Shown here: in pieces, positions 16,578 through 40,761 of the stretch
Numbering within the stretch: position 1 is the stretch's first letter
Layout: each line of letters starts with the position of its first letter
Assembly (NCBI GenBank): GCA_030620045.1
Contig: JAUXAD010000004.1
Span: 1 to 44,123 of the forward strand
Direction of reading: 5' to 3'
Source of the DNA: an archaeon
GTDB taxonomy: Archaea; Nanobdellota; Nanobdellia; Pacearchaeales; GW2011-AR1
DNA: 44,123 bases
The notes under the pieces: generated by a model
Database searches by the model: none
Told to the model about the DNA's origin: nothing
What the model saw: only the letters and a program-made list of their open reading frames with translations
Made by a program: the position numbers and the translations under genes

Positions 16578-17822
16578 TTATCTCACAAACCCAACTTTCT
16601 TCAGCAACTCATTCCCCAACATTCCCCCAAGACTCCCTTTTCTTGCTTCTTTTTCAGAAAATTTCTTTTCTTTAGGAACAGAGTCATTGTAAAACAAAAC
16701 CGGAACAGGATCTGCAGAATGGTGTTTAAGCTTGCAGGGTGTTGTATGGTCTGCTGTAACAACAACTTTAATTTTATTTGGTGGAGCAAACTTTCTCAAA
16801 AAATTAAAAAAAGTTTTGTCAATATATTCTAACATTAATTTTTTTTCAACAGGCTTATTATCATGTCCTGGCGTATCTGTTTCCTTTAAATGTATATAAG
16901 CATAATCTACTTTTTTGTGATTTTTTTTCAAAGCTTTAATAGAAAAAGTGCAGGCTTTTTTCAGACCTTCCCATAAATTTCCATAAGAATCTAATTTTTT
17001 TAATTTAGGGTAATCAAAAGAAAAAACTTTCATGCCAGAATGTCTTGTAAAACCTATTTCCAAAGGCATGTAAGCAACAGAAAGCCACTTTTTATATTGT
17101 TTTAATTTTGGAACTTCAATCCCAGCGCCCCTCACAAAAAGAAAGTTCGCAGGCATTAACCCCCTTCTCCTCCTCTCTTCATTTACTGGATGTTTATCAA
17201 GAATCTCATACGCTTTTTCTATGAACTCATTTACAATATTTGCAGTATATTGTGAATTTTCATCATCATCCAAAGGCTTGCAAAATCTAACTTTATCTAC
17301 AGCTTGAGATTTTCCCTGAGTATATGTCAAATCATTTCCAGAAATATTATCAGAAAAACCTCCCCTAAACACCAAAACCCCTCTATGCTGAATCGTTGGC
17401 TCAAAAATAAACTTGCAAGGAAGTTTTATTTTATTGTTTAATGCTTTAGCCAAAATTCCTGCTTCCAACGTTGTTAAAGTCCTTCCTGCTCTTCTGTCTA
17501 AAATATTACGCTTTTCCAAAGAATCAATTGTCGCAAAATTAGCTCTTAATGCCAAATCCCCTCTTGTCAATTTTATATCTGTGCCCCTTGCCTCTAATTG
17601 TCCTCTAGTACTTGAAATTAAATTACTGCCAAAAATAGAAACAATCGCTTCATCTGATTCAGGAACAAATCCTGGCTTAACAGGATACATATATCCCATC
17701 TCCCCTCTAGTAGCCAAAAAATCTAAATTAGGAGTATCTGCAGCCTCTAAAGGCGTCTTCTCATTAAGCTGTTTGCAGGGCAAATCCCCCATGCCATCCA
17801 AAATCACAAATATTCCCTTCAT
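16578..17822 (-). CDS. apgM: Cofactor-independent phosphoglycerate mutase, archaeal type
   Basis: It interconverts 3- and 2-phosphoglycerate in glycolysis/gluconeogenesis through a metal-bound phosphoserine intermediate. The 414 aa protein is of normal length for ApgM and belongs to the alkaline-phosphatase fold. It starts with the metal-binding FVILDGMGDLP motif (Asp9), followed by KTPLEAADTPNLDFLA, the nucleophile region PESDEAIVSIFG (Ser56), and near the end VVTADHTTPCKLKHHSADPVP, which supplies Asp and His ligands. It is first in the run apgM-rdgB-GINS and diverges from ftsY over an 85 nt gap holding a TATA box for each strand. Confidence 0.97.
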   Translation of the reverse strand: MKGIFVILDGMGDLPCKQLNEKTPLEAADTPNLDFLATRGEMGYMYPVKPGFVPESDEAIVSIFGSNLISSTRGQLEARGTDIKLTRGDLALRANFATIDSLEKRNILDRRAGRTLTTLEAGILAKALNNKIKLPCKFIFEPTIQHRGVLVFRGGFSDNISGNDLTYTQGKSQAVDKVRFCKPLDDDENSQYTANIVNEFIEKAYEILDKHPVNEERRRRGLMPANFLFVRGAGIEVPKLKQYKKWLSVAYMPLEIGFTRHSGMKVFSFDYPKLKKLDSYGNLWEGLKKACTFSIKALKKNHKKVDYAYIHLKETDTPGHDNKPVEKKLMLEYIDKTFFNFLRKFAPPNKIKVVVTADHTTPCKLKHHSADPVPVLFYNDSVPKEKKFSEKEARKGSLGGMLGNELLKKVGFVR

Positions 17823-17877
17823 TTTATATATTAAACAAAGCCCTCTTCTTTATAAAAATTTATATCTAATAAGAAAA

Positions 17878-17887
17878 CATTATAAAT
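17878..17887 (+). promoter_or_regulatory. TATA box of ftsY
   Basis: CATTATAAAT is centred 25 nt before the ATG at 17908. This supports that ATG rather than any start further upstream, because the frame stays open far into apgM on the opposite strand. Confidence 0.7.
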
Positions 17888-17907
17888 CTCCAAGCACTAA
17901 AAAATAT

Positions 17908-18930
17908 ATGTTCAAATTTTTAAGAGATAAAATAGGAAATTGGGCAAAAAAAGTCTCAGAAAAAGCAGAGCCAGTTGAAACCCCCAAAAAAATTAAAGAA
18001 AAACCAAAAAAAATAACAAAGCCCTCCCCAGAACCTGAAGAAGAAAATATTTTCAAAAAAATAACTTCAAAAATATCCAAGGTAAAAATTTCTGAAAAAG
18101 AATTTGAAGTCTATTCTGAAGAACTTGAAATGTTACTCTTAGAAAACAATGTTGCTTTAGAAGTTTCTGAAAAAATAATTCAAAAATTAAAAGAGAAAAT
18201 CGTCAAAAAAGAATTACTAAAAAAAGAAATTGAAAGTGAAATAAAAGATTCATTCAAGGAAATAATTGAAGAAATTTTAATAGAGCCCTTTGATTTAGTT
18301 GAAAAAATTAAAGAGAAAATTTCAGACCAAGCAAAAGAACCTTATGTTATTTTATTTTGTGGGATAAATGGAACAGGAAAAACAACAACTATCGCAAAAA
18401 TTGCAGATTTGTTAAAACATAAAGGAATTTCTTGTATTATCGCTGCAGCAGATACTTTTAGAGCAGCCTCAATTGAGCAGATAAAAGAACACGGAGATAA
18501 AATAGGGATTAATGTCATTGCTCATGATTACGGCTCTGACCCAGCATCAGTTGGATTTGATGCAATAAAATATGCAAAAAAGAATTTCATTGATTGTGTT
18601 CTGATTGATACAGCAGGAAGAATGCATACCTCAAAAAATCTTTTAAAAGAAATAGAAAAAATTTCACGGGTTTGCAAACCAGACTTAAAAATCTTTGTCG
18701 GTGAAAGCATAACTGGAAATGATGCAATAGAACAAGCAAAAAGTTTTGACTGGACAATTGGAATTGACGGCATAGTTTTAACAAAAGCAGACATTGATGA
18801 AAAAGGCGGGACATCTTTATCAGTAGGATATGTTACAAAAAAACCAATTCTCTACCTTGGCACAGGACAAGCTTATGACAAGATAGAAGTTTTTGACAAA
18901 CAAAAATTCATAGAAAAACTAGGATTATGA
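17908..18930 (+). CDS. ftsY: Signal recognition particle receptor FtsY
   Basis: This SRP receptor GTPase docks the SRP-ribosome complex at the membrane. The 340 aa protein has a short hydrophobic/basic N-terminus (MFKFLRDKIGNWAKK), a charged linker (about 20-60), an N-domain helix bundle, and a G domain with G1 GINGTGKTTT (152-161), ADTFRAAS, DTAGRMHTS and the TKAD motif. The C-terminal GTGQAYDKIEVFDKQKF is diagnostic of FtsY rather than SRP54. I chose the ATG at 17908 over the open frame upstream because of the TATA position and the normal protein length. A candidate structured RNA begins 7 nt behind its stop. Confidence 0.96.
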   Translation: MFKFLRDKIGNWAKKVSEKAEPVETPKKIKEKPKKITKPSPEPEEENIFKKITSKISKVKISEKEFEVYSEELEMLLLENNVALEVSEKIIQKLKEKIVKKELLKKEIESEIKDSFKEIIEEILIEPFDLVEKIKEKISDQAKEPYVILFCGINGTGKTTTIAKIADLLKHKGISCIIAAADTFRAASIEQIKEHGDKIGINVIAHDYGSDPASVGFDAIKYAKKNFIDCVLIDTAGRMHTSKNLLKEIEKISRVCKPDLKIFVGESITGNDAIEQAKSFDWTIGIDGIVLTKADIDEKGGTSLSVGYVTKKPILYLGTGQAYDKIEVFDKQKFIEKLGL

Positions 18931-18937
18931 ATTTTTG

Positions 18938-19024
18938 TGACGTCTATGCGATTTCACAGGAGGCAATTAGAAATCGCCGTTCAGTGTTTAGAGGAAGTTC
19001 AAAAGAAACCAGCGGGTGTCTTTT
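18938..19024 (+). ncRNA. Candidate structured RNA, copy A (behind ftsY)
   Basis: The segment is clearly richer in G+C than the surroundings and shares a near-identical core with 40401-40487. Hairpin 1 is a perfect 8-bp stem (GCGATTTC 18948-18955 with GAAATCGC 18970-18977) closing a 14 nt loop that ends GGAGGCAATTA. A GGAAG motif and an A-rich linker follow. Hairpin 2 (ACC 19008-19010, loop AGCG, GGT 19015-19017) is followed by a T-rich tract from 19021. A weak outer helix (18938-18941 with 19 nt-distant 18979-18983) is possible. No clear own TATA box was seen; it may be released from the ftsY transcript. The class is unknown, and the strand is inferred from copy B. Confidence 0.55.
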
Positions 19025-19075
19025 ATTTGATAAGAAGAAGTTTATTGAGAAGTTGGGGTTATAAAAAAAGAGTTA

Positions 19076-23683: not shown

Positions 23684-23798
23684 TAGCCCTACCAGGATTC
23701 GAACCTGGGTCCCAGCCTTTCTTCGCAATCGCAATGAACATAAGATGCGTGCATCTTGCACCAAGGGGCTGTATACTTGACCACTGTACTATAGGGCT
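23684..23798 (-). tRNA. tRNA-Gln (anticodon TTG) with intron
   Basis: On the minus strand a cloverleaf forms once 42 nt are removed. The acceptor is AGCCCTA/TAGGGCT with discriminator A73, the D stem GTAC/GTAT, the anticodon stem CAGCC/GGCTG with loop C-C-TTG-G-A, and the T arm CCAGG/CCTGG with TTCGAAT. The A1-T72 pair fits archaeal tRNA-Gln. Position 33 is C instead of the near-invariant U in this reading. A TGG (Pro) reading would give T33 but breaks the anticodon stem, so Gln is preferred. Confidence 0.85.
23719..23760 (-). other. tRNA-Gln intron, 42 nt, canonical position 37/38
   Basis: The intron sits between G37 and A38. It contains a strong internal hairpin (AAGATG, loop CACG, CATCTT). 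Flanking this, the intron start TGCAA can pair with either of two TTGCG copies near its end, giving the helix expected of an archaeal bulge-helix-bulge splice site. The exact cut points could shift by 1-2 nt. Confidence 0.7.
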
Positions 23799-40400: not shown

Positions 40401-40487
40401 ACTTACGCGCGATTTCCCTGGAGGCAATTAGAAATCGCCTCACCGTAAAGGAAGGGAAAATCGAAAAAAACCGCTTAGGTTGTTTTC
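40401..40487 (+). ncRNA. Candidate structured RNA, copy B (EF-1-beta leader or independent sRNA)
   Basis: Hairpin 1 is GCGATTTC (40409-40416) with GAAATCGC (40431-40438), loop CCTGGAGGCAATTA. It is extended by TTACG (40403-40407) with CGTAA (40444-40448). A GGAAG motif and an A-rich linker follow, then hairpin 2 with AACC (40469-40472), loop GCTTA and GGTT (40478-40481), then a TTTT tract directly before the EF-1-beta ATG. From the stem through the A-rich linker the order of parts matches copy A at 18938-19024. The loop holds GGAGG, a Shine-Dalgarno-like sequence. It is GC-rich compared with the surroundings. Confidence 0.6.
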
Positions 40488-40488
40488 A

Positions 40489-40761
40489 ATGGGAATCACT
40501 GCAGTTAAAATAAAAATCATGCCAAGTTCACCAGATGTAAATCTAGAAGAAATAAAAGAAAAAGCAAAAGAAAAAATAGAAAAGGCTGGAGGAAAAAATT
40601 CTCAATTTGAAGAAGAAGCTATAGCTTTTGGTCTTAAAGCAATAATAACTCTTTTTGCCTGGCCAGAAGAACAAGAAATTGAACCCTTAGAAGAAAAACT
40701 CAAAGAAATTGAAAATGTGAATTCTGTTCAAGTTATTGATATGCGAAGAGCATTTGGTTAA
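40489..40761 (+). CDS. ef1b: Translation elongation factor 1-beta (aEF1B)
   Basis: This is the guanine nucleotide exchange factor for EF-1A. The 90 aa protein is the full length of the archaeal form, which is only the catalytic C-terminal domain of eukaryotic EF-1-beta. It begins MGITAVKIKIMPSSPDVNLEE and has the central AIAFGLKAIITLFAWPEEQE and the end VNSVQVIDMRRAFG. I use the ATG at 40489, not a TTG three codons earlier, because it begins the conserved strand. The implied leader from the TATA box at 40371 contains structured RNA copy B. Confidence 0.95.
   Translation: MGITAVKIKIMPSSPDVNLEEIKEKAKEKIEKAGGKNSQFEEEAIAFGLKAIITLFAWPEEQEIEPLEEKLKEIENVNSVQVIDMRRAFG

Follow-up and report, generated by a model that had tools for sequence, protein, structure and literature searches.

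What is the short, GC-rich, two-hairpin sequence that occurs twice in this window (the whole 44,123-nucleotide stretch of DNA analyzed here), once behind ftsY and once before the EF-1-beta gene? A sequence-only reading had described both copies as having the stem GCGATTTC/GAAATCGC, a 14-nt loop ending in GGAGGCAATTA, a GGAAG motif, a second ACC/GGT hairpin, and a T tract, and we found every one of these parts in copies A and B. Within the window, GGAGGCAATTA has 2 occurrences versus 0.02 expected by chance, and GCGATTTC has 5 versus 0.43 expected. The copies were also correctly said to be GC richer than their surroundings, since the cores (18948-19025 for copy A and 40409-40488 for copy B) have GC fractions of 0.436 and 0.438 versus 0.317 for the window, where just 2.6% of 80-nt windows have a GC fraction of 0.44 or more. 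The outer pairings TTACG/CGTAA and TGAC/GTTCA, previously offered as covariation, do not recur in other copies, and stem 1 is preceded by variable bases. The features of the two loci are as follows.

17413..18930, + strand: ftsY (SRP receptor GTPase), which carries a duplicated end
18892..18930, + strand: T', the functional ftsY 3' end upstream of copy A, FDKQKFIEKLGL plus stop
18900-18912 (ACAAAAATTCATA) and 18926-18938 (TATGAATTTTTGT), + strand: inverted repeat spanning the end of T'
18948..19025, + strand: copy A element core (stem 1, spacer, stem 2); covariance model (CM) score 99.4 bits, E 5e-19
18948..18977, + strand: copy A hairpin 1, with covariation in aligned copies
18948-18955 (GCGATTTC) and 18970-18977 (GAAATCGC), + strand: copy A stem 1 arms
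18956-18969, + strand: copy A loop 1, ACAGGAGGCAATTA
19001..19024, + strand: copy A hairpin 2, AAAAGAAACC / AGCG / GGTGTCTTTT, with covariation in aligned copies
19026..19064, + strand: T, the displaced second ftsY 3' end, starting directly at the copy A 3' end, FDKKKFIEKLGL plus stop
40409..40488, + strand: copy B element core (type B spacer and hairpin 2); CM score 81.4 bits
40409..40438, + strand: copy B hairpin 1
40463..40487, + strand: copy B hairpin 2, GAAAAAAACC / GCTTA / GGTTGTTTTC
40489..40761, + strand: EF-1-beta gene, with its ATG (40489) directly after the last base of copy B

We searched Rfam 15 at gathering and permissive thresholds and found nothing relevant to the element, in agreement with the earlier statement that it matches no known RNA class. 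By sequence search, the window's own genome (G000; G, C, and L numbers are our handles for genomes, contigs, and loci) has nine clear copies, two of them with a longer hairpin 1. A covariance model built from 16 short copies served for the search of relatives that the sequence-only reading had proposed, and among 200 genomes of the order, all compared as incomplete metagenome-assembled genomes (MAGs), it found the element in 33 genomes and in 28 of 104 genera. All 33 belong to one family of Pacearchaeota-type DPANN archaea, with strong scores in eight genera of that family and weak matches in others, and the copies number at least 100. Among named records, the exact core occurs in MAGs of Pacearchaeota, Woesearchaeota, and Nanoarchaeota; the exact core pattern had zero matches in viral contigs. 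The searchable literature, which excludes subscription journals and preprints, held no earlier description of the element. It is apparently an undescribed family of tiny mobile elements, about 76 to 140 nt long, in Pacearchaeota archaea.

In 96 aligned copies, every one of the eight stem 1 pairs had two-sided changes, as did eight of the nine in stem 2. Paired cells amounted to 93.8% versus 78.7% in shuffled and at most 57% in slid controls, with an alignment that had been made to fit the structure. The G008 copies by themselves have stems of GTGGCATC/GATGCCAC or GTGATATC/GATATCAC, while the model seed had GCGATTTC/GAAATCGC, and because these stems differ from that of the seed, the covariation does not depend on the structure-fitted alignment alone. 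A loop-anchored pairing test discriminated poorly, since 472 of 1388 swapped control pairs likewise reached 7/8, and the covariation claim is therefore based on the 96-copy shuffle and slide test. We predict that the element folds, as RNA or as a single strand, into two hairpins with a purine-rich spacer. The many additional copies and the strong compensatory change in both stems bear out the earlier suggestion of a structured family restricted to this lineage. The conserved core of loop 1 is AGGC and not GGAGG; we counted GGAGGC in 57 copies, AGAGGC in 14, GAAGGC in 14, and AAAGGC in 3. Separately, four loci (L042, L044, L045, and L063, in G036, G037, and G028) gave weak matches to a hairpin-2-like module, GGAARGTTC..AAGAAACC..GGTTTCTTAT. 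Three of the four are in other families of the order, the modules lie directly before tRNA 5' ends or start codons, and from their sequence they are possibly distant relatives that lack hairpin 1.

The distribution of copies is patchy even within a genus: G075 has seven copies and a second genome of its genus, G002, has none. Comparison of congeners showed the same locus occupied in one genome and empty in the other at L249 (G132 versus G131) and at L269, L270, and L278 (G174 versus G175). These occupied/empty sites include a tRNA intron and the smc start; at the latter, only the occupied genome has the duplicated start. Some copies are antisense to genes, and others are within reading frames or tRNA introns; this placement together with the presence or absence between congeners is the behavior of a mobile element. 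When the nearest relative of each copy was sought, 31 of 37 comparisons pointed to another copy in that genome and not to one at the corresponding site of another genome. The copies are short, multicopy, dispersed, and mobile and have no transposase gene, as is typical of miniature inverted-repeat elements (MITEs) and Rickettsia palindromic elements (RPEs). In G008, there are tandem arrays with a unit of about 121 nt, and by our reading, the sequence between units appears to resemble the smc 3' end. The G008 genome also has a second repeat with the element at a fixed internal point (L195, L197, L198, and L199, on C18 and C19), where the junction reads ..AAATTCAGGGATT, then the element, and then GTTAAATCTTAAAAACAATTTT; because that point is fixed, the two repeat families may move together. 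Two tRNA introns, L028 (G013 C6) and L270 (G174 C12), have an antisense element copy flush with the exon, and in G175 the same tRNA as at L270 has a short intron. In the window itself, Rfam matches a 115-nt tRNA at 23684-23798 on the minus strand that ARAGORN misses, so this tRNA probably bears an intron.

Placement of the copies relative to genes is one sided. An ATG opening at least 60 codons (or a frame running to the end of the flank) lay 0 to 3 nt from the element 3' end in 33 of 101 copies, a set in which two loci are counted twice, versus a control-window mean of 1.5. The mirrored tests at the 5' end were at chance (3 versus 3.4 expected and 2 versus 3.2 expected). Whichever way a conserved gene is oriented, the element's 3' end lies directly against the inside edge of that gene; the 5' end does not. 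Other copies adjoin antisense stop codons, a boundary visible only to something that tracks conserved sequence, and we therefore infer that recognition or persistence is set by the 3' flank alone. The element also adjoins a tRNA 5' or 3' end with a gap of 0 to 1 nt at six loci (L004, L007, L079, L107, L196, and L045), and at L214, read by eye, it adjoins the antisense end of an apparent 16S rRNA.

Some copies lie in frame within protein genes. Insertions of 27 to 29 codons occupy one PolB loop in three genera (G008, G013, and G014), flush with the conserved YVEYV and after a variable loop, while most relatives' PolB proteins have a short loop without the insertion. An unrelated 29-residue insertion occurs at this same exonuclease-domain loop in G030 polB (L218). 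In-frame insertions were also found in a LigD-type phosphoesterase (two genera) and an RsmB/F-like methyltransferase. We saw no conserved encoded peptide, as the frames of hairpin 1 differ between the G014 and G008 PolB insertions and other copies hold stops. Targets common to several genera, several of which were identified from Pfam, are EF-1-beta, SRP54, S10, Spt5, RpoP, S3Ae, a HerA-like ATPase, Gins51, smc, ftsY, and PolB.

Copy A is flanked by two recoded ftsY 3' ends, which the sequence-only reading had overlooked. T and T' each comprise the last 13 codons including the stop; 11 of the 13 codons differ and one amino acid differs. Ten of the 13 nucleotide changes are at third positions, and for Gins51 in G024 the share is six of six. 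Host codon usage fits neither T nor T' of ftsY clearly better. In relatives, ftsY has a single 3' end without the element; we rejected on this comparison the possibility, raised earlier as one that would speak against an RNA family, that copy A is a degraded coding repeat.

Duplications of 21 to 48 nt of the target, starting at the element 3' end, were present at at least 14 sites. Eleven of 137 copies had a duplication above the 99.5% null level (0.7 expected), and these start no more than 2 nt from the element 3' end, the exception being one tandem copy. Others are at ftsY in the window, smc in G008 (L204), smc in G024 (split over L030 and L211), and smc in G075 (L282). T and T' are identical or nearly so, and hence recent, at G030 ftsY (L194), G024 smc (L030/L211), G008 smc (L204), Gins51 (L180 and L088; G003 and G157), L051, and tRNA-Leu (L275), and they differ mostly at synonymous positions at G000 ftsY, G000 smc, and G024 Gins51. 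A minority of copies have target duplications, and most start-codon copies have none. In gene-interior copies, stem 1 is immediately preceded by an inverted arm of 8 to 11 nt whose sequence is the reverse complement of the first bases of T. Testing all copies for pairing of at least 8 bp between the 5' and 3' flanks gave seven versus 0.6 expected, limited to gene-interior copies. The arm is not a simple snap-back of local sequence, as the arm at G008 smc (L204) fits another smc allele better. Gins51 in G008 has undergone repeated insertion rounds at one nucleotide. At two Gins51 sites (L180 and L088:1722), the duplicated start has acquired its own Shine-Dalgarno-like AGGAGG/GGGAGG and the displaced copy retains an ATGA overlap with the preceding gene.

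We consider it reasonably probable that this family, with its structure, insertions, target duplications, and one-sided gene-edge rule, is a small, non-autonomous Pacearchaeota element that is mobilized in trans, is directed one-sidedly to gene ends, and spreads between species at conserved sites. The 3' end, after hairpin 2, joins the edge of a conserved block T, leaving the 5' end toward dispensable sequence. This edge may be a start codon, a stop codon met in antisense, the end of a tRNA or rRNA, or a position no more than about 45 nt from a gene end. In some cases insertion duplicates 21 to 48 nt of T. At a gene-interior site, the upstream T' keeps the gene complete and T is stranded beyond the element, and copy A in ftsY is an example. 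Homing between species would explain why the element persists in many genera at identical conserved sites, although the EF-1-beta copies at the same start codon in different genera could be vertically inherited. By analogy with fungal mitochondrial gene-end invaders, donors of other species may explain why T and T' of some copies have diverged synonymously. The inverted arm of gene-interior copies has no agreed cause and, like the lack of a target duplication in most start-codon copies, is a point against this preferred explanation.

The mobilizing enzyme would be supplied in trans, and we looked for one. There were zero reverse transcriptase (PF00078) matches in G008, G013, and G014, whereas an ORF-less group II intron or retroelement would be expected to have this enzyme available in the genome. 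The Y1 transposase and TnpB/Cas12f were absent from G008, G013, and G030, which are incomplete genomes. By genome co-occurrence, none of these enzymes tracks the element. Joint absence from G008 and G013, which have 44 and 16 copies, argues against reverse transcriptase, Y1, or TnpB each as sole partner, and in incomplete MAGs such absence is weak evidence.

The closest known parallels are of four kinds. RPEs and prokaryotic MITEs are small, multicopy, hairpin-forming, and non-autonomous, and RPEs are about 100 to 150 bp long, with many in-frame insertions in protein genes and others in RNA genes (PMC10969869). The present element shares all of these traits, yet its host is archaeal, it has two separate hairpins with a conserved loop in place of one palindrome, its 3' end is tied to gene edges in either orientation, and it has 21- to 48-nt target duplications and an inverted arm without a conserved encoded peptide. 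Terminal inverted repeats matching an autonomous element are expected of MITEs and RPEs, and no conserved terminal inverted repeat was found in the copies. We place the element among the small palindromic mobile elements, as one whose placement follows an unusual rule. Endonuclease-encoding mobile ORFs of fungal mitochondria duplicate the carboxy terminus in atp6, atp9, cox2, and nad3; they insert near the gene 3' end, a working, synonymously diverged end is kept, and the native end is displaced, with the divergence attributed to horizontal transfer of foreign gene ends (PMC3630166). The likeness is in the duplicated gene end whose working copy has diverged mainly synonymously (G000 ftsY and smc and G024 Gins51), whereas our element is below 150 nt, encodes nothing, also sits at gene 5' ends (Gins51 and L051), and occupies dozens of loci per genome. 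IS200/IS605 elements, their non-autonomous derivatives, and the TnpB omegaRNA have subterminal hairpins and a structured 3' RNA, with the 3' flank serving as guide. Hairpins and a structured 3' end are common to both, and here too the 3' flank would be the guide; in contrast, Y1 and TnpB are missing from element-rich genomes, target duplications are present, and our search placed no element at the TnpB loci of G000. A further parallel is with integrative elements directed by an identity block to the 3' ends of tRNA or protein genes; they duplicate the gene end and leave the gene intact, as seen here at tRNA-Leu, ftsY, and smc. Unlike them, the element has no integrase or cargo, and N-terminal targets and start-codon flush sites are common.

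We weighed other explanations against the preferred one. The copies could be an ordinary MITE or palindromic element of an unseen insertion sequence that inserts at random, with the gene-edge pattern arising purely from selection against harm, and small size, copy number, lack of an ORF, patchiness, hairpin ends, target duplications, and in-frame insertions like those of RPEs (PMC10969869) are all consistent with it. However, selection alone predicts intergenic scatter and equal ends, whereas only the 3' end is flush with genes; identical insertion nucleotides in different genera, the variable 21- to 48-nt duplications, and the lack of evident terminal inverted repeats also fit poorly, and we regard this explanation as rather unlikely. 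About 40 copies lie directly before start codons, mainly of information-processing genes (EF-1-alpha, EF-1-beta, L11, S10, S3Ae, SRP54, Spt5, and RpoP), and with sites common to several genera and strong covariation, they might be a conserved cis-acting RNA leader of start codons and tRNAs, inherited vertically and homogenized by gene conversion. A leader would make no sense at antisense stop codons, at tRNA or 16S rRNA 3' ends, inside PolB, or in tandem arrays, and close relatives entirely without the element also make this reading improbable. A fixed small RNA gene is ruled out by copy number and placement. The earlier proposal of a small trans-acting RNA whose exposed GGAGG loop binds the anti-Shine-Dalgarno sequence draws on the conserved purine loop of G000-type copies. 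About one in three anchored copies has GAAGGC or AGAGGC in the loop, and across the loop variants complementarity to the anti-Shine-Dalgarno CCUCC is therefore not kept; copies inside reading frames and antisense to genes further make this proposal highly implausible.

RNA guidance is attractive because T is always on the 3' side, in a conserved gene. The element would then be a guide-RNA scaffold with T as its 3' extension, directing cuts in unoccupied genes that a recoded T' escapes. Consistent with this, G024 Gins51 and G000 ftsY differ from T almost only at third codon positions, and insertion recurred at one Gins51 nucleotide in G008. Against it, TnpB/Cas12f co-occurrence gave no candidate nuclease that tracks the element, recent insertions in which T' equals T should be self-targeting, and a TAM-like motif is not evident at the insertion point, which leaves RNA-guided homing doubtful. 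Equally speculative is its extension to a gene-less drive, in which an RNA with T as guide would let a nuclease open the unoccupied gene while the recoded end rescues it and resists recutting; if true, archaea would have a natural cleave-and-rescue drive in miniature.

The DPANN archaea, small and reduced, have hardly been cultivated, and knowledge of the mobile DNA in their genomes is scarce. It is unusual for a gene-less element of about 80 nt to be found repeatedly at the same nucleotides of essential-gene ends in many genera. The genes reached include ftsY, smc, Gins51, PolB, EF-1-beta, and tRNAs, which are kept working through duplicated or recoded ends. Annotators of these genomes should bear in mind that a gene end, an additional loop in PolB, or a tRNA intron can be inserted sequence. 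The finding raises the question of which molecule recognizes gene edges, and if an RNA-guided or one-sided insertion enzyme is behind the element, it could be a new, very small targeting system.
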